DNA of 64,000 bases, from NCBI GenBank assembly GCA_038740345.1, contig JAVYMA010000001.1:87992-151991 (forward strand). Direction: 5' to 3'. Under the pieces are notes generated by a model that was given only the letters and a program-made list of their open reading frames with translations, had not been told where the DNA came from and did not search any database. A program made the translations under genes and the position numbers. This document shows positions 8,813 to 46,858 of this stretch, piece after piece. Numbering within the stretch: position 1 is the stretch's first letter; each line of letters starts with the position of its first letter. The stretch comes from Methanomassiliicoccales archaeon. Lineage in GTDB: Archaea; Thermoplasmatota; Thermoplasmata; Methanomassiliicoccales; UBA472.

Positions 8813-10914
8813 GCGCTCTCCCTCCTTATAGTGACCAGCGCGTCCACCGCACCAGCCCCCTCCCCCACGTCGCCGACGATGAGGGGGTTTATCTCTAATT
8901 CTGTGATTTCGGGGAAGTCCTGCGCCACCTGCGCCACCTTGAGTATCACTTGCCGCAAGGCTTCCAGATCCGCAGGCTTCCTACCTCTGACGCCTGTTAA
9001 GATAGGATAGGCCCTGATGGAGCGGATCAGATCTGTCACGTCCGCGTTCGAGAGGGGTACGATCCTCTGCGCCACGTCCTTGAGGACCTCTACGAAAATG
9101 CCCCCCAGACCGAAAGTGACCACTGGTCCGAACTGGTCGTCGCGAACCATCCCCACTATGACCTCCCTGCCCGATATCATGCGTTGCACTAAGACGCCCT
9201 CCACCCTGGCCCGGGGGGCCATAGCCCTTACCCTGGATAGGAGTAGGTTGAATTCATGGCGGACCTCTTCCTCGCGGCGCAGCCCCACCACCACTCCTCC
9301 CACATCAGTCTTGTGCGCGATGTCGGGAGATTCCACTTTCAGGACGATGGGGTATCCTATCCTTCTCGCCAGCTCCACCGCCTCCTCTTCGGTCCTGGCC
9401 ATCCCCTCATCGGGTACAGAGATGCCATATGCCCGGAGGATTTCCTTGCCTTCGCTCTCGCTCAGCCCCACCCTTCCCTGGGACTTGACCTTAGCCAGCA
9501 ATGCCCTGACCCTCTCCTTGTCGCCCTCGAAGGTGGGGAATGTCTCGGACACGTTGCGAGAACGCGCTTTCTGATACTCCACCATGGCGCTCAGGGCCCG
9601 AACCGCTCGGTCCGGTGATTCGAAATCAGGTATACCCGCCTGCCTGAGTATCTCCAAGCCCTCATGCACATCATTGCCGCCAGCGAAGCACGCCACCACG
9701 GGCATAGCGCTGCTTTTCCCATGCGAGGCCACAATGCGCGCCACGCTCGGAATGTCCACCAGATCGGTAGGCGCTAACAGTACTAGCACGGAGGACACTG
9801 CCGGGTCTTGCATGACCGTGCGTATGGCGAAGTCATAACGGTCCGCAGTGGCATCCCCTATCACATCTACGGGATTGTATACATTGGCTTCAGCGGGGAG
9901 GTAGGAGCGCAGGCGTTCTACCGTCTCATGGGAAAATGTGGCTAGGGCCAAGTCATGATCCCCGCAGGCATCTGCGGCCATCACTCCCAACCCTCCTGCG
10001 TTGGTGACGATGGCCACGCCTCCCTCGGTCCGGGGCATGCGGGCGCTGCTGAAGATCATGAGCAGATCGAAGAGCTCTTCGATATCATGCGCCCTGATCA
10101 CACCAGACTGCTCCAGCGCCGCCTGGTAAACCTTATCCCCAGAAGAGATGGCGCCCGTGTGAGAGGAGGCGGCCTTGGCCCCGCTGCTTGTCCTCCCTGC
10201 CTTCAAGGCTATCACCGGCTTCACCTTGGAAGTGGCCTCTGCCTGCTGCATAAAATCGGCTCCTCTGGTTATTCCTTCGATATACATCCCGATGACCTTG
10301 GTCTTGGGATCATCGCGAAGATATCGCAACACATCCGCCTCTTCGATATCCATCTTATTCCCCAGGCTGACGAATTTGGAGAAGCCCGCTTTCGTTCTCG
10401 AGGCCCAATCCAGGAGCACGGAGCATATGGCCCCGGACTGAGAGGATATTCCTATGCTACCCTCTCGGGGATAGTTATTGGTGAAAGTGGCATTCATACG
10501 CCTCTGAGTGTTGATTAGCCCGAGGCAATTGGGGCCCAGCACCCTTATGCCATACGCCTTGGCTATTGAGTCTGTCCGCCTCTCTAGCTCCGCACCCTCC
10601 TTTCCCGTCTCCTTGAAGCCAGCGGAGATCACGATTGCCGCTTTTACCCCCTTATTGCCCATTTGCTCCATGACATCCGGCACGAGGATGTTAGGGACGC
10701 ATACCAGCCCCAGGTCTATCCTCCCGGGGACCTCCAGCACGCTAGGATAGCACTTTATGCCCAGTATCTCCTTGGCCTGGGGGTTGATGGGATAAAGGGC
10801 TCCGGCGAAGCCTGATGAAATGAGGTTCCTCAGCACGATATGACCGACTTTCTTCTCCTCCCTGGAAGCGCCAATGATAGCGATGGAATCCGGCTCGAAC
10901 AGCTCCCTTACCAT
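8809..10914 (-). CDS. acdAB: acetate-CoA ligase (ADP-forming), fused alpha-beta
   Basis: Interconverts acyl-CoA + ADP + phosphate with acid + CoA + ATP, allowing substrate-level ATP synthesis from acetyl-CoA in archaea. The N-terminal CoA-binding Rossmann domain begins FEPDSIAIIGASREE. The ligase-CoA domain includes SSHTGAISSG near residue 257, where the active-site His is expected. The C-terminal ATP-grasp domain contains EEAVELARRIGYPIVLK and the VGGVVVGL loop. At 701 residues it is the single-chain form with both subunits fused. It is followed, with a 4 bp overlap, by the BioD/DRTGG protein. An ATTAATATT element about 25 bp upstream of the ATG could be its TATA box. Confidence 0.9.
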   Translation of the reverse strand: MVRELFEPDSIAIIGASREEKKVGHIVLRNLISSGFAGALYPINPQAKEILGIKCYPSVLEVPGRIDLGLVCVPNILVPDVMEQMGNKGVKAAIVISAGFKETGKEGAELERRTDSIAKAYGIRVLGPNCLGLINTQRRMNATFTNNYPREGSIGISSQSGAICSVLLDWASRTKAGFSKFVSLGNKMDIEEADVLRYLRDDPKTKVIGMYIEGITRGADFMQQAEATSKVKPVIALKAGRTSSGAKAASSHTGAISSGDKVYQAALEQSGVIRAHDIEELFDLLMIFSSARMPRTEGGVAIVTNAGGLGVMAADACGDHDLALATFSHETVERLRSYLPAEANVYNPVDVIGDATADRYDFAIRTVMQDPAVSSVLVLLAPTDLVDIPSVARIVASHGKSSAMPVVACFAGGNDVHEGLEILRQAGIPDFESPDRAVRALSAMVEYQKARSRNVSETFPTFEGDKERVRALLAKVKSQGRVGLSESEGKEILRAYGISVPDEGMARTEEEAVELARRIGYPIVLKVESPDIAHKTDVGGVVVGLRREEEVRHEFNLLLSRVRAMAPRARVEGVLVQRMISGREVIVGMVRDDQFGPVVTFGLGGIFVEVLKDVAQRIVPLSNADVTDLIRSIRAYPILTGVRGRKPADLEALRQVILKVAQVAQDFPEITELEINPLIVGDVGEGAGAVDALVTIRRESA

Positions 10915-40766: not shown

Positions 40767-42491
40767 CTAATCCTTCGTTCTTCTCTTGTGCCTAATACGT
40801 ACCGCCTCTCCTTTTTTCATTTGCACCATTTCGATACCGCTCATTACAGCTACGCCCACGCCTTCCAATCTTCCATTCCTAAACACTATGGCCTCATCCC
40901 CAATGCGTAGCCCTTCATGTGCACTCTTGATGCCCACAGCGAAAAGATTTCCCTTCAGATCAAAATCCTCCATCTCCACCCAGTTCACACCTAGGTCAGA
41001 GAGCCTCTCTGCACCTTCTAATGTTAGGGATATCATCCCGCGCTCGGGCGTCAAGATACCCATTTGCGTCCCACCATGCATTATTTTGGAATAAGGATAG
41101 TTGCCAGTTATCAAGCAACCGGCTGTGAGACGTTCTCCCCCTTCTCCGAATTGGAATAGGGCAGCGGAGGTGAGGGCAGAGACTCTATCCTCACCTTTCG
41201 CAGGTTTAACATAATGAGGACAAATGCTTGAGAGCTCATTCACCAATTTTTCAAGGGATGCGCGAGAAGTTGGGTTACCTTGGCATGTTTCAATCGTGTC
41301 CAATTTTTTCCTAAGAAAATCGTATCCATGGCCCAGATGACAAACGACTTTTTCGAATCCTTTAGAGATGACAGCAGAGACCATCTCCTGCACCATATTC
41401 TGCTCATCCAAATCCCAATGCCCCGTGACAGGAATTTCATATTGGGCGGCGGGATAAAATAGCTCTAGCTCCCTTGGCACGATACCTAGCGGCGAGGTAA
41501 CAATCAATTCCTGCACCACCTCGTGATTAGGCACTTGAAGCAAGGCCTCTCGGAAAGCCTTATGACTCTTCGAAGTGAAGTAGGGCTTCTTCGCCGAGCA
41601 AGGTAGGAGCAGCAACACCTTCTTATGAGGGGCCGGTCTCCACCGCTCCATCACCCTTCTTCTCCACCTAATTATATCTGGCCTTTGCAAGGATTGCTTC
41701 GAATTGGCATAGAATCTAGGACCCGTGAGCTGAGCTTGAATTTCCTGATGCTCATAGCCTTCGAGATCGAAAAGCCGCAGAGCGGCTACCCCCCAAGGAG
41801 TAGCGTTGGCTCTTATCTCCACCAATTCACGAAGCCGCCCTATCCTGATCATGTGGCGAACCAGCTGGAGCTCTTCCCACGCAGCTCGCAGATTAGCCTC
41901 TCGTACTCTTTGCGCATCTTTCCTAAGTTCCGACCAAGGTGCTTCCTGAGCCATGATAGTACCCTCAGGACGAGAAAGGACCATACGGGCTGAATAATAC
42001 TCTAAAAGGGAGGAGTCGAGAAGGTCCACACCCATGTAGATTAATAGGGCAAGATTGCTTAAATCCATGATTCCTGGCGCGTAGATAAGACGTGCAAAGC
42101 CCACCTGTCGACGGGCTTTCTTGATTGATTCGATGAAGGCTCGAGCGTCCCGTCGCAACTCGAAGCTAAAAGGAAGTATGGCTACTTCTCCATCATCTAG
42201 CTTGACGGTAGAGATATCAAGAGATGAATCTATTTCGACTGGATCCATGTCTTTTTTAAGTGACATGGGGGGAAAAATTCTGATTGGGAGATCTGCCACT
42301 TTGCCACTCCTTTGCCAGATGCTTATGGTGTGCTCCAAGTTTCTTTGCTCTTCGATCCAAGCCTCAGAATATGGGGGAAGCTCATAGCCTTGGCTTTTTA
42401 CGAATAGAATCGATGGAGTCTGCAGGATAAAACCAGGGCCGGTCCATACAGTGGTCCGTCCGTGAAATGAGCGCCCCGTTACCTCAATCAT
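40767..42491 (-). CDS. arcS: archaeosine synthase ArcS
   Basis: 574 residues. Converts preQ0 at position 15 of archaeal tRNA to archaeosine (recently described as the lysine-adding partner in that step). The N-terminal half is a degenerate TGT-like barrel (FARLIYAPGIMDLSNLALL). The diagnostic ArcS motif LLLLPCSAKKPYF lies near residue 302, and a C-terminal PUA RNA-binding domain (about 490-570) contains GIKSAHEGLRIGDEA and FRNGRLEGVGVAVMSG. Length and domain order fit the family. It is preceded upstream by a strong hairpin at 42584-42618. Confidence 0.9.
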   Translation of the reverse strand: MIEVTGRSFHGRTTVWTGPGFILQTPSILFVKSQGYELPPYSEAWIEEQRNLEHTISIWQRSGKVADLPIRIFPPMSLKKDMDPVEIDSSLDISTVKLDDGEVAILPFSFELRRDARAFIESIKKARRQVGFARLIYAPGIMDLSNLALLIYMGVDLLDSSLLEYYSARMVLSRPEGTIMAQEAPWSELRKDAQRVREANLRAAWEELQLVRHMIRIGRLRELVEIRANATPWGVAALRLFDLEGYEHQEIQAQLTGPRFYANSKQSLQRPDIIRWRRRVMERWRPAPHKKVLLLLPCSAKKPYFTSKSHKAFREALLQVPNHEVVQELIVTSPLGIVPRELELFYPAAQYEIPVTGHWDLDEQNMVQEMVSAVISKGFEKVVCHLGHGYDFLRKKLDTIETCQGNPTSRASLEKLVNELSSICPHYVKPAKGEDRVSALTSAALFQFGEGGERLTAGCLITGNYPYSKIMHGGTQMGILTPERGMISLTLEGAERLSDLGVNWVEMEDFDLKGNLFAVGIKSAHEGLRIGDEAIVFRNGRLEGVGVAVMSGIEMVQMKKGEAVRIRHKRRTKD

Positions 42492-42646: not shown

Positions 42647-42784
42647 CTACTTACTTCCTTTTGCGGAGCTCCTCTTCCTCAGAGATTTAAAGAATGCCCT
42701 TATGCCCTTTCTCTCGCTTCTCTCTTCCTGGCTTGTCGCGCTCAATTCACCTGCGCTTTTCTTTTCGGCATTCAGGTTGTCCAT
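42647..42784 (-). CDS. small basic protein of unknown function (45 aa)
   Basis: The ATG at 42784 has an excellent Shine-Dalgarno, GGAGGTGA, 5 bp upstream. The product begins MDNLNAEKKSAGELSATSQE and ends with a basic cluster FFKSLRKRSSAKGSK. A longer frame to 42841 exists but has no ribosome-binding site. The gene is followed by a strong hairpin. No family is recognised. The ribosome-binding site and the flanking elements are the main evidence that it is real. Confidence 0.55.
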   Translation of the reverse strand: MDNLNAEKKSAGELSATSQEERSERKGIRAFFKSLRKRSSAKGSK

Positions 42785-42997: not shown

Positions 42998-43357
42998 CTA
43001 GAAAGTTGTAACCACTTGATGTTCATCAACCAATTGCCTGGCTCTATCCCAAGATATCATTTTTACTCCTTCGACTATGGGAACGCTGCCTAGGCGGGAT
43101 TCTAGGTCTTCAGCCACGCAATAGACCTCTCCTTCGAAATCGGCTAGGTCGTTTATGGCCTCGACGTTTGAAGGCATACCTATGGCCTGTGCATCCTGGG
43201 AGGCTACTGCATTCAATGTGCCATCACCCACCAACAATAGGGTGGACCTTCCTATCAGCCCGCTGGCCAACATGGCCAAAGAAGCTCTTGCGCCCGCGAA
43301 GAATTCCTCAAAACCGTAGGGAGGCTTCGTCATGATGAATAGTATGCTGTCAGCCAT
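42998..43357 (-). CDS. DsrF/TusC-like sulfur-relay protein
   Basis: 119 residues of the DsrE/F-like fold: ILFIMTKPPYGFEEFFAGARAS, then STLLLVGDGTLNAV. The segment NDLADFEGEVYCVAEDLE occupies the place where DsrE-type partners carry the active Cys; here a Cys is present in YCVAED. Last gene of a six-gene reverse operon with DsrE-, DsrH- and TusA-like genes. The start ATG at 43357 has AGGTGATG upstream. Confidence 0.8.
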   Translation of the reverse strand: MADSILFIMTKPPYGFEEFFAGARASLAMLASGLIGRSTLLLVGDGTLNAVASQDAQAIGMPSNVEAINDLADFEGEVYCVAEDLESRLGSVPIVEGVKMISWDRARQLVDEHQVVTTF

Positions 43358-43361
43358 AACA

Positions 43362-43724
43362 TCACCTGGCGATAGTCACGAGTCTGTCACCCTCGCTTAT
43401 AAACTTGCTAAAATCATTAGTCAAAGAACCGATCTTGGTGCCCTTTATTTCCTCACCGCGGTGTATTCCTCTGGCAGCACAGCATGTCTCGCATACCGTT
43501 ACGACCAATCCCTTTTGTTCGACGAGCTCCTTTATCTCTTTACCCACATTTGGGAATCTTTTAGGGTCTTGTCCGTCCTTTATAACCGTCACTCCTTCCC
43601 CGTAGCCGAACATGCGCACGTTGTAGCCCTTCTCCAGTGCCGCCCTTGCCAACTTAATGGCTACGTTGGAGTCCATGCTCATCATGCTTCCCGTCCTTAG
43701 TTGTATTACCATGGTCTTAGCCAT
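43362..43724 (-). CDS. DsrE-family sulfur-relay protein
   Basis: 120 residues. Begins MVIQLRTGSMMSMDSNVAIKLA, with VRMFGYGEGVTVIKDGQ in the middle and a Cys-rich loop VVTVCETCCAARGIHRG that matches the active-site region of DsrE/TusD proteins, which carry a persulfide. Together with the neighbouring DsrF- and DsrH-like proteins it probably forms a hexameric DsrEFH/TusBCD-type sulfur carrier. Separated by 4 bp from the DsrF-like gene. Confidence 0.82.
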   Translation of the reverse strand: MAKTMVIQLRTGSMMSMDSNVAIKLARAALEKGYNVRMFGYGEGVTVIKDGQDPKRFPNVGKEIKELVEQKGLVVTVCETCCAARGIHRGEEIKGTKIGSLTNDFSKFISEGDRLVTIAR

Positions 43725-43733
43725 ATCAGCACC

Positions 43734-44036
43734 TCAAATGGTTATCGTGCGTTCGTACTTTTCCATGATTAAATCCACAGCTTCTTGGTAATCAATCTCC
43801 TTGAATCTCCCTCCTGCCTTACCCCTGAATCCTCGAGCAGCCAAGTCGTCCTTAATTACGAAGACTTCGTCAACGCGCTCTTCTAGATTCTTCCTTTCCT
43901 TTTCATTCACAGCATAATATACTGCGTCCTCAATGAGCAAGGCACCCTTCTTGGAATCTTGACCAAGTTTATTCACCAAATCCAAGTTCACGTTCTCATG
44001 GGGAGACTTTAACATGATGAAGAGGATGGAGGGCAT
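43734..44036 (-). CDS. DsrH/TusB-like sulfur-relay protein
   Basis: 100 residues, starting MPSILFIMLKSPHENVNLDL, then KGALLIEDAVYYAVNE and VFVIKDDLAARGF, the usual DsrH order. No Cys is present, unlike some TusB proteins, so it is likely a structural subunit. Between the DsrE2-like and DsrE-like genes with short gaps. Confidence 0.75.
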   Translation of the reverse strand: MPSILFIMLKSPHENVNLDLVNKLGQDSKKGALLIEDAVYYAVNEKERKNLEERVDEVFVIKDDLAARGFRGKAGGRFKEIDYQEAVDLIMEKYERTITI

Positions 44037-44043
44037 GATAGTA

Positions 44044-44454
44044 TCACCCGATGAAAAATTGCATATCAGAATCTGCTGCGATGTTCAGGAACCCAGCTGC
44101 CCCTAAAATCTTCACCCCTGGATACAGATCCTCTTCTTTCACGTTCATTACCCCCATGCTGGTTCCGCAAGCATATAGATTGACGCCTAAATCCATAGCC
44201 ATCTTAACCTGCTCCGGATAATCCTCAACGCCCACAGCTTTCATTTTCTTCCTGAACATGCCTGTGAACAAACGGAATAAGCCAGGGGCTTTGGGGCGAT
44301 ATCCCTTCTTTAAAAGATTCAAACCGAAGAAAGTACCGAAGACATGAACTTCCATGCCCATGCTTGTAGCGGTGTTGGCTATCATCATAGCCATCATACC
44401 TTTGTCAAATGTTCCTTCAGAAACTACAATAGCGATTTTCTTGACATCTGTCAT
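44044..44454 (-). CDS. DsrE2-like (DsrE/F-like, peroxiredoxin-type) sulfur-transfer protein
   Basis: 137 residues from the ATG at 44454, chosen because GAGGTG lies 7 bp upstream; the frame could extend to a GTG at 44463 inside that ribosome-binding site. Motifs: KKIAIVVSEGTFDKGMMAMM, MGMEVHVFGTFFGLNLLKKG and GVNLYACGTSMGVM, where the Cys is the likely sulfur carrier. This is the DsrE2 family that often accompanies TusA. Confidence 0.82.
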   Translation of the reverse strand: MTDVKKIAIVVSEGTFDKGMMAMMIANTATSMGMEVHVFGTFFGLNLLKKGYRPKAPGLFRLFTGMFRKKMKAVGVEDYPEQVKMAMDLGVNLYACGTSMGVMNVKEEDLYPGVKILGAAGFLNIAADSDMQFFIG

Positions 44455-44469
44455 ACCTTTCACCTCAAA

Positions 44470-44703
44470 TCATAACTTCCTATTTTCTATCGACGTTACA
44501 ATCCATGACCCATTAAACATTCCTAAATGAAGCTGGCCAAATCTCTTAGCGCATAAATTCCATGGATTGATTATACATCGAGCCCTCTCAAACATATGAT
44601 CCATCATTCGAATCATTCTCATTACCATCTCATTTTTCATGAAGATAAAAGACTCCTTGCTCAACCTCAGAGATTTGACCTGATTCAAATATCTGGTGCG
44701 CAT
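44470..44703 (-). CDS. unknown 77-aa protein inside the sulfur-relay operon
   Basis: The ATG at 44703 lies 6 bp after the tusA stop, with AGGAAGG at the end of tusA as a possible ribosome-binding site, and the stop lies 15 bp before the DsrE2-like start. The product (MRTRYLNQVKSLRLSKES at the start) is basic, rich in Met, Arg and Phe, with two Cys (ARCIINPWNLC). No family recognised. The tight fit between the flanking genes is the main evidence; it could also be a decayed gene or spacer. Confidence 0.45.
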   Translation of the reverse strand: MRTRYLNQVKSLRLSKESFIFMKNEMVMRMIRMMDHMFERARCIINPWNLCAKRFGQLHLGMFNGSWIVTSIENRKL

Positions 44704-44709
44704 TTATTT

Positions 44710-44940
44710 TCAAACCTTCCTTTTGATATAGAAATAAAATATCTTGCCCTCTTGTTTTGTTTCCAGGAGCTCATTTTGAGTCCTTTGGCACCAGGCAGGA
44801 ACGTCCTCTTTTGCCCCAGGGTCATCAGCGATCAATTCTAAGACCTGGCCTATTTGAAGTTCCTTGATTTTTTTGGCCAATTTAACGATGGGCATAGGGC
44901 ACATTAATCCTCTCGCATCCAAACTTGCATCTTTTTGCAT
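44710..44940 (-). CDS. tusA: TusA-family sulfurtransferase
   Basis: 76 residues. The signature DARGLMCPMPIVKLAKKI near residue 8 contains the CPxP motif whose Cys carries sulfane sulfur, followed by IADDPGAKEDVPAWCQ. First gene of the operon, transcribed from the shared divergent promoter. It would pass sulfur to or from the DsrE-type proteins encoded next. Confidence 0.88.
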   Translation of the reverse strand: MQKDASLDARGLMCPMPIVKLAKKIKELQIGQVLELIADDPGAKEDVPAWCQRTQNELLETKQEGKIFYFYIKRKV

Positions 44941-44966
44941 TTTCGCATCACCACCGGTTTTGCACG

Positions 44967-44990
44967 GTTGTGCGACAACTATATATAACC
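44967..44990. promoter_or_regulatory. shared divergent promoter with GTTGT-gcg-ACAAC palindrome
   Basis: CTATATATAACC (about 44979-44990) can act as a TATA box in both directions, for tusA (reverse) and for the HTH regulator (forward). Next to it, GTTGTGCGACAAC at 44967-44979 is a 5+5 bp palindrome placed near the tusA transcript start. It is a good candidate operator for the adjacent regulator. A second TATA-like CTTATAAGC near 44998 may serve the regulator gene. Confidence 0.45.
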
Positions 44991-45044
44991 AACTTTCTTA
45001 TAAGCCTTTCGTAGAAGAAGACCTGAATGCCCGGAGGTTATGAG

Positions 45045-45410
45045 ATGCTTCCCGAGCGTGTTTCAGACATCACCACTTGTCAGGATCTCATACAATGCGC
45101 CTATAATTTGGGAGAGTTTGAGGTCCTCGTCTATTATGCCTTAGTGGAATCGGGGCCTATGCGAGCGGACGAGCTAGCCGTTATTATAGGACGAGACCGA
45201 AGCACAGTATACAGATCACTCCAGAAGCTGATGACTTGTGGAATGGTGTATAGAGAAACGAAGAGCATGGAAAAGGGCGGCTATTATCATATTTATAAGG
45301 CCATTAGCAAGAAGGACTTAAAGGAGAAATTGGAAAAATGCGTTAACGATTGGTATTCACGCATGCAAGACGTTTTGAAAAAATTTCTAGAAGAAGCTAG
45401 GACCAGATAG
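45045..45410 (+). CDS. winged-helix (TrmB/MarR-like) transcriptional regulator
   Basis: 121 residues from the ATG at 45045, chosen because GGAGGT lies 7 bp upstream (the frame extends to 45027). The winged HTH is AYNLGEFEVLVYYALVESGP, then ADELAVIIGRDRSTVYRSLQKL, the recognition helix. A basic helical tail follows (LKEKLEKCVNDWYSRMQDVL). It is divergent from the sulfur-relay operon across an 86-bp gap with a palindrome, so it probably controls that operon. The signal sensed is unknown; C93-type cysteines may respond to redox state. Confidence 0.8.
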   Translation: MLPERVSDITTCQDLIQCAYNLGEFEVLVYYALVESGPMRADELAVIIGRDRSTVYRSLQKLMTCGMVYRETKSMEKGGYYHIYKAISKKDLKEKLEKCVNDWYSRMQDVLKKFLEEARTR

Positions 45411-45470
45411 TCCAGCAAAGGTAGCTTGAATAAGTATTTTAGTGCCCCGTGTGATTCACAAGAGAGCACC

Positions 45471-46403
45471 ATGAATTTCAAGGGAAAGGACATAGTGTCC
45501 ATCCGAGACCTTACTAGAGCTGAGATGGATAGAATACTTGACCTAGCGGAAAAAATGATACCATACGCAAAAGGTGAGTCTTTCACGAAGGTGCTCGAGG
45601 GGCGTATTTTGGCCAACCTCTTTTTCGAGCCGTCCACACGTACGCATATGTCCTTTACTACGGCCATGTCCCGTTTGGGGGGGCGCACGATGGAAATGGC
45701 TCATCCCTCAATGTTATCTGTCGCCAAGGGTGAGACCCTAGCAGATACCATCCGAATGGTGGAATCCTATTCTGATGTCATTGTCTTGAGACATCCATAT
45801 GAAGGGTCAGCCAGATTGGCTGCTCACTTCTCCTCGAAACCTGTCATTAACGCTGGAGACGGCGCGGGTCAGCATCCCACCCAGACCCTTTTAGATCTCT
45901 TCACGATAAGGAGGGAGTTCAACCGCATTGAAGGTGTCAAGGTAGCCTTAGTGGGTGATCTAAAATATGGCCGCACAGTTCATTCCCTGGCAGAAGCATT
46001 GACGATGTTTGGAGCGGAGGTCACTTTCGTCGCTCCGGCAAATCTCCAAATGCCGCGTGAGACTGTACGTCAGGTAGAAAGACTCGGTGGAAAGCCCAAG
46101 CTGACCTCAAAATTAGAGGATGTGATTAAAGATCTTGATGTATTGTATGTCACTCGCATACAAAAGGAGAGGTTTCCAGATCCGACTGAATACCAAAAGG
46201 TAGCGGGGTATTATCGAATAGATAACGACCTTCTACGTGAGGCCAAGAAAGATCTTATCGTTATGCATCCTCTGCCTCGAGTGGATGAGATTGCTCCTGA
46301 AGTTGATGGGACTGCGCACGCGCGCTATTTCGTACAAGCATTCAATGGTGTACCTGTAAGGATGGCGTTATTACTGCTCGTTCTCGGAGGTGAGCTTGAA
46401 TGA
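45471..46403 (+). CDS. pyrB: aspartate carbamoyltransferase catalytic subunit
   Basis: Second step of pyrimidine biosynthesis. 310 residues from the ATG at 45471 (MNFKGKDIVSIRDLTRAE). Carbamoyl-phosphate site FEPSTRTHMSF, aspartate/carbamoyl region HPTQTLLDLFTI and HPLPRVDEI are all intact. The frame extends to 45426 but without a ribosome-binding site. Overlaps pyrI by ATGA. Confidence 0.94.
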   Translation: MNFKGKDIVSIRDLTRAEMDRILDLAEKMIPYAKGESFTKVLEGRILANLFFEPSTRTHMSFTTAMSRLGGRTMEMAHPSMLSVAKGETLADTIRMVESYSDVIVLRHPYEGSARLAAHFSSKPVINAGDGAGQHPTQTLLDLFTIRREFNRIEGVKVALVGDLKYGRTVHSLAEALTMFGAEVTFVAPANLQMPRETVRQVERLGGKPKLTSKLEDVIKDLDVLYVTRIQKERFPDPTEYQKVAGYYRIDNDLLREAKKDLIVMHPLPRVDEIAPEVDGTAHARYFVQAFNGVPVRMALLLLVLGGELE

Positions 46404-46858
46404 AGGAGTTCAAGGTAACGCCGATAAGGAATGGGACAGTGATAGACCACATCGATTGCGGCATGGCCTTGAAGGTCTTAAGAATAATCGGTGTTTCTGG
46501 TAATAATGTCCATTCACCTGTTAGTGTACTGATGCACGTCCCTTCCTCAAAGGTTGGATTCAAGGATGTAGTGAAGGTAGAGGACAGGGAACTGGACCCA
46601 AAAGAAGTGGATAAGATAGCTTTGATTTCTCCAAATGCGACCATCAATATTATTAGAGATTTTAATGTCGCAGAGAAATTTAAAGTCTCCTTGCCCAGTG
46701 TGGTAAAGGGTATAGTCCGTTGCGGCAATCCCAGCTGTATAACGAATCTTAAAGAACCAGTTGAGCCTGAGTTCACCGTTGAGTCAAAGAATCCTCCCTT
46801 GCTCAGATGCATATACTGTGATAGGATTCTGGAGGATATCGGGGAACAATTGATTTGA
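46400..46858 (+). CDS. pyrI: aspartate carbamoyltransferase regulatory subunit
   Basis: 152 residues. The N-terminal nucleotide effector domain starts VTPIRNGTVIDHIDCGMAL. The C-terminal zinc domain has the four-Cys site CGNPSCITN and LRCIYCDRIL. Translationally coupled to pyrB, so the window carries a complete allosteric ATCase. Confidence 0.93.
   Translation: MKEFKVTPIRNGTVIDHIDCGMALKVLRIIGVSGNNVHSPVSVLMHVPSSKVGFKDVVKVEDRELDPKEVDKIALISPNATINIIRDFNVAEKFKVSLPSVVKGIVRCGNPSCITNLKEPVEPEFTVESKNPPLLRCIYCDRILEDIGEQLI

Follow-up and report, generated by a model that had tools for sequence, protein, structure and literature searches.

What does an archaeal sulfur relay supply when the acceptors known from other relays are missing from the genomes that carry it? 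The question is raised by an operon in a 64,000-nucleotide stretch, here called the window, of contig JAVYMA010000001.1 (GCA_038740345.1, positions 87,992-151,991 of the forward strand) from a Methanomassiliicoccales archaeon. Between positions 42998 and 45410 of the window the minus strand carries, in the order of transcription, genes for TusA, DsrE2, DsrH, DsrE and DsrF, and a winged-helix gene diverges from them on the plus strand. Little is understood about how sulfur is mobilised and routed in methanogens. Our results suggest, with a probability that we put at roughly 0.55, that the operon encodes a sulfane-sulfur relay and is controlled by a local thiol-switch regulator of its own. A conserved relay that lacks known acceptors, has mostly been lost in one family and is preceded by a single nearly invariant DNA element makes both inducer and recipient directly testable.

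All five products of the operon resemble known sulfur-relay proteins. The first gene, tusA (44710..44940, minus strand; PF01206, 3.3e-27), encodes a sulfur-carrier protein of 76 amino acids (aa) with a CPxP motif, the cysteine of which is kept in 38/38 orthologues. It is followed by dsrE2 (44044..44454, minus strand; 136 aa; PF13686, DrsE_2, 4.1e-32), with a single conserved cysteine in 32/32. The start of dsrE2 is more likely the ATG at 44454 than the listed GTG at 44463, since the former has the better ribosome-binding context and agrees with the starts of homologues. The solved relatives of DsrE2 are 2QS7 and 3PNX, the best being 2QS7, which is cited as a DsrE2B structure (PMC4175335). The remaining minus-strand genes are those of the DsrH/TusB subunit (43734..44036; 100 aa; TIGR03011, 2e-16, above its curated cut-off), the DsrE/TusD subunit (43362..43724; 120 aa; PF02635, 1.8e-15) and a DsrF/TusC-like subunit (42998..43357; 119 aa; PF02635, 5.8e-6; TIGR03010, 4e-5, below cut-off). 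The E family profile matches chain A of 2HY5, the F profile chain B and the H profile chain C; 2HY5 is the DsrEFH structure of A. vinosum, which is of type I and was matched here in a comparison without type II sequences. DsrH matches chain C at 2.3e-10 and DsrE matches chain A at 1e-5; for DsrF, chain B is the best solved match, a weak one (E=0.0078), with which its place as the last of the conserved five-gene order agrees. The active-site cysteine of DsrE, at the Cys78 position, aligns with the cysteine of chain A and is invariant in 35/35 orthologues. No cysteine of DsrH is conserved among 36 orthologues, and Cys20 of A. vinosum DsrH is absent. The dsrE, dsrF and dsrH genes lie side by side at every locus with enough sequence except L045 (G009, 10367-10841), where dsrE is shortened to 84 aa and continues into dsrF, through either a deletion or an assembly error.

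The operon is found throughout the order Methanomassiliicoccales, in the majority of environmental relatives as well, and has mostly been lost in one family, here labelled f2. Among 147 genomes of the order its DsrE gene is present in 40/45 outside f2, where three of the five negatives are incomplete genomes, and in 7/102 inside. Family f2 includes genomes under the name Methanomethylophilaceae; among its positive members are names of isolates from sediment and soda lakes, and the cassette may plausibly have been lost in gut lineages. Every named locus that the DsrE profile matched in the genome collection was labelled Methanomassiliicoccales or bore a compatible name. The five-gene order is kept in Methanomassiliicoccales generally, apart from the absence of dsrE2 in some operons and an extra DsrE gene in some; dsrE2 is missing from the operons L088, L101/L135 and L141 and is thus dispensable in some lineages. 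The whole arrangement is also present in L124, from a genome of the same class outside the order. In two more distant Thermoplasmatota (L125, 360-5780, and L128) a homologous regulator adjoins genes for DsrH, DsrE, DsrF and TusA, which are followed by a YeeE-type (Sulf_transp) gene and one for an exported-looking protein bearing four rhodanese domains. The limited literature searched yielded no description of this order-wide, DsrC-free operon with its regulator and element, in which known families occur in a new setting.

The divergent gene (45027..45410, plus strand; likely start 45045, where homologues begin) had been called a helix-turn-helix (HTH) regulator in a first-pass annotation of the locus, and the profile matches agree. 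They indicate a winged-helix protein of the Lrs14/Sta1/TrmB type, with TrmB (PF01978, 2.5e-19) above its Pfam cut-off, NF053606 (1.2e-18) below cut-off, and Sta1 (67.1 of 80 bits) and Lrs14 (54.1 of 90 bits) both under their curated cut-offs. An N-terminal Cys-x5-Cys is present in 37/37 regulators, distant homologues included, and two further cysteines are frequent (33/37 and 35/37). In 3R0A, the closest relative with a solved structure, the second cysteine of the pair alone is kept.

In front of tusA lies a conserved 36-nucleotide element (44955..44990, minus strand) that combines a TATA box (44980-44988) with a candidate operator, the inverted repeat TCGCAC-AACC-GTGCAA at 44960-44975. Its core, AACCGTGCAAAACCG at 44955-44969, is found in 30/33 loci, and the start of tusA lies 7-27 nucleotides past it. 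Read on the tusA strand the consensus is RGTTATATATARTTRNYGCACAACCGTGCAWAACCG, the TATA box being followed by the inverted repeat GCAC-N4-GTGC. In the core-bearing loci mean pairwise identity is 0.93 within the element, against 0.44 upstream and 0.40 downstream. On the plus strand CTTATAAG (44997..45004) may be the TATA box of the regulator gene, and it recurs there in relatives. The site occurs once in the window, where 0 are expected. A search of 46 genomes returned 29 sites spread over 28 genomes; 28 of these sites are at tusA, and the reversed control pattern had 0 matches. The sole extra site is a weak one with two mismatches in G009, so that an operator-based search for a regulon that might hold the sulfur recipient gave nothing beyond it and the tusA site. 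The element is absent at nine further loci, most of which have no linked regulator; L055, among these nine, has a diverged one. L124 and L092, the regulators of which are more diverged, share a different near-palindrome (16/17 and 14/17 symmetrical positions). Judged from sequence, such a pattern is that of a regulator acting locally through an operator of its own. Both the TATA-plus-inverted-repeat element and the regulator with an invariant Cys-x5-Cys are new in this analysis.

We prefer a sulfane-sulfur sensor because cysteine switches that react with sulfur are an established feature of archaeal SurR (PMC7278568) and of bacterial SoxR of Hyphomicrobium (PMC12423496); a metal sensor or a plain redox sensor would fit the regulator sequence equally well. 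SurR of Thermococcales and SoxR/sHdrR of bacteria are likewise winged-helix regulators with a conserved cysteine pair encoded beside sulfur genes. The window regulator differs from them in its HTH family, in having Cys-x5-Cys rather than CXXC or a distant pair, and in seemingly having a single target.

We propose that the system works as follows. Persulfide sulfur, supplied by a cysteine desulfurase or by polysulfide, would be taken up by TusA and transferred to the cysteine of DsrE within a complex of DsrE, DsrF and DsrH; DsrE2 would be a loading partner or a side carrier. From there the sulfur would go on to a biosynthetic acceptor other than DsrC, DsrAB or a clear MnmA. As a repressor, the regulator would sit on the conserved element that covers the tusA promoter, and it would come off the DNA once its conserved cysteine pair is bridged by sulfane sulfur or through oxidation. 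A 77-aa open frame in the tusA-dsrE2 spacer, discussed below, would have no role. In vitro, type II DsrEFH of cable bacteria receives sulfur from TusA on DsrE via one cysteine (PMC13293266), and in TusBCD Cys78 of TusD/DsrE is essential, while Cys20 of DsrH is unneeded for transfer (PMC3397948). The window proteins have the cysteines known to be required for TusA-to-DsrE transfer. As to the source, this genome has a second TusA-DsrE2 pair (L059, G000:C6, 7918-10375) directly before genes for a NifS/IscS-type cysteine desulfurase and a NifU_N (IscU-like) protein, and a desulfurase is thus available. YeeE was considered as a source and dropped, being absent from the order.

The first-pass annotation saw no recipient for the sulfur, and the wider survey bears this out. 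The sulfite reductase domain NIR_SIR was found neither in this genome nor in family f1, and DsrC/TusE in 0/147 genomes of the order. MnmA-family matches are weak: the highest score in this genome is 25.7 bits, and such matches are probably due to related ATPases. This excludes DsrC, DsrAB and any clear MnmA as acceptors, or makes them unlikely. The roles in Fe-S, cofactor or methyl-sulfur chemistry that the first-pass annotation had suggested for such modules may apply here. Several observations weigh against a relay under its own sulfur-responsive switch. In f2 members the cassette occurs without the regulator or the element; no YeeE-type sulfur importer (PF04143) exists in any of the 147 genomes; and IscU/NifU_N does not track the cassette, being present in many genomes without it and missing in some with it, so that NifU_N was dropped as a co-occurring partner. 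It is also conceivable that the regulator activates transcription, that its cysteines hold a metal or that it responds to another signal. A more far-reaching version of our proposal, in which a sulfane-sulfur assimilation or defence system would employ a new archaeal class of persulfide sensor with one operator per genome, relay sulfur to a novel acceptor and have a paralogous relay feeding YcaO for the maturation of methyl-coenzyme M reductase (MCR), is tentative and in our view rather unlikely.

Comparison with characterised systems shows both shared parts and missing ones. In A. vinosum three DsrE-fold subunits are likewise encoded together with tusA, and the DsrE active-site cysteine is kept here. 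In contrast to that system, dsrAB is missing from this genome and dsrC and yeeE from the order, DsrH has no Cys20, and the window operon adds dsrE2 and a dedicated regulator. In a 2026 survey DsrEFH types are mostly linked to dissimilatory sulfite reductase (DSR) genes or yeeE, and archaeal type II DsrEFH genes accompany dsrMK or qmoAB (PMC13293266). In the YTD cluster, which has type II DsrEFH, yeeE/yedE stands beside tusA and dsrEFH; this gene is absent in the order but present in the distant L125 cluster. Another archaeal tusA with a DsrE2-type gene is that of the dsrE3A-dsrE2B-tusA cluster of Metallosphaera cuprina, where DsrE2 also has one conserved cysteine, but there, unlike in the window operon, the cluster is beside genes for Hdr-like proteins and dihydrolipoamide dehydrogenase and has no DsrEFH (PMC4175335).

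The alternative that survives best, although we think it unlikely, is that the relay is an archaeal counterpart of TusBCD feeding tRNA thiolation. The E. coli TusA-TusBCD-TusE relay, which serves tRNA 2-thiouridine, has its likenesses here in TusA and in TusD-, TusC- and TusB-like proteins, and the Cys78 position of TusD is kept. A DsrH without Cys20 and a DsrE with Cys78 is, moreover, the pattern that suffices in TusBCD and for DsrEFH transfer in vitro (PMC3397948). The next gene on the same strand is arcS (40767..42491, minus strand; NF040592, 1e-117, below cut-off), for archaeosine synthase alpha, and the relay and arcS might together form a tRNA-modification operon. Downstream of dsrF and in the same orientation, arcS is found in 25/31 named loci with enough sequence, counted by hand; the distance in relatives is often no more than 40-70 bp, and co-transcription is possible. 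The absence of a dissimilatory sulfite reductase or tRNA thiouridylase nearby, as had been noted before, extends to the whole genome for NIR_SIR; on the tRNA side it is incomplete, with arcS, a tRNA-modification gene, adjoining the operon. However, archaeosine needs no sulfur atom. TusE/DsrC is missing from the order, no MnmA is convincing, and the extra DsrE2 has no equivalent in the E. coli relay. A function in tRNA thiolation would be expected to be general, yet 95/102 f2 genomes have no cassette, and arcS is absent around the f2 cassettes seen.

A second alternative, which we consider quite unlikely, is that the relayed sulfur goes into methanogenesis cofactors or into the thioglycine of McrA, a subunit of MCR. 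In one genome (L139, G031:C205, 1-3313) genes for an AsnC-type regulator, two DsrE-family proteins, TusA and DsrE2 lie directly upstream of YcaO, the gene for McrA thioamidation, which suggests that this paralogous cluster relays sulfur for the maturation of MCR. The linkage was observed in that genome alone; in G032 the arrangement is split at contig ends and compatible with it. The present genome has mcr, YcaO and TfuA together, but the window operon is not near them, and YcaO is present in 38/41 relatives, including f2 genomes without the cassette. A part in dissimilatory sulfur oxidation or reduction is very improbable: although types I and II of DsrEFH mostly accompany dsrAB (PMC13293266) and DsrE2 and TusA accompany Hdr-like sulfur oxidation in Metallosphaera (PMC4175335), the lack of NIR_SIR in this genome and f1 and of DsrC in the order leaves the DsrAB route already disfavoured, Hdr-like sulfur oxidation genes not having been searched.

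The operon is best read as one of five genes, not six. The first-pass annotation had described six frames on the minus strand, separated by gaps of 4-15 bp and divergent from the HTH gene. These frames and gaps are as described, and the Pfam, NCBIfam and 2HY5 matches support a compact sulfur relay; the sixth gene, proposed as a new component, found no such support. This 77-aa frame (44470..44703, minus strand), which fills the 250-bp spacer between tusA and dsrE2, is probably not a conserved gene. No Pfam or NCBIfam family matches it, and neither 30 relatives (best E 0.02, at differing places) nor viral contigs yielded a homologue. In the operons of 17 relatives tusA and dsrE2 are 9-107 bp apart, too close to leave room for the frame, and in the sole same-genus operon having both ends the distance is 22 bp. 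The frame thus appears to be no component of the conserved system. That it encodes a real, lineage-specific small protein, a young orphan, is decidedly doubtful. A frame so long has a chance of about 0.9% of arising in such a spacer, and this one nearly fills it and has a purine-rich stretch before its ATG. Its codon score (0.042), however, falls in the coding and spurious ranges alike, at the 17th percentile of real 77-codon stretches in the genome and with 16% of spurious frames higher, and its GC content (0.37) is lower than that of its neighbours. A single-sequence structure model contains one confident helix but is poor overall (mean predicted local distance difference test, pLDDT, 67; predicted template-modelling score, pTM, 0.37). 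As for other origins of the spacer, a decayed copy of TusA, DsrE2 or the extra DsrE gene of some relatives found no support, the similarity being no better than that of shuffles, the genome holds no repeat of it beyond the spacer itself, and a structured RNA was rejected (fold z -0.73, no Rfam match). In six other loci (L039, L046, L052, L054, L085 and L090) an extra DsrE-family gene with Cys-x2-Cys, 119-122 aa in four of the relatives, lies between tusA and dsrE2.

On the other side of the regulator are pyrB and pyrI (45426..46858, plus strand), read from the sequence as aspartate carbamoyltransferase subunits, in an order that is conserved in relatives. The conserved neighbours of the operon in relatives are thus arcS and pyrBI, neither of which is a known sulfur taker; dsrAB is not among them. 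The adjacency of pyrBI is probably unrelated synteny. The six named loci without arcS are also without the regulator and pyrBI. In the complete f2 genome L134 the cassette has other surroundings, and since the f2 cassettes seen have neither arcS nor pyrBI, the two look like inherited gene order.

Further frames accompany the operon in the window and in relatives. Between arcS and dsrF of the window lies a 45-aa frame (42647-42781) with a strong Shine-Dalgarno sequence and no Pfam match; in its place the same-genus locus L053 has a basic 48-aa frame (1920-2066), the likeness being judged by eye. In L036, L037 and L071 a frame of 231-232 aa lies between dsrF and arcS, the L036 copy being a DUF116 protein. 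Between the regulator and pyrB, L042, L044 and L084 have a conserved 352-aa frame.

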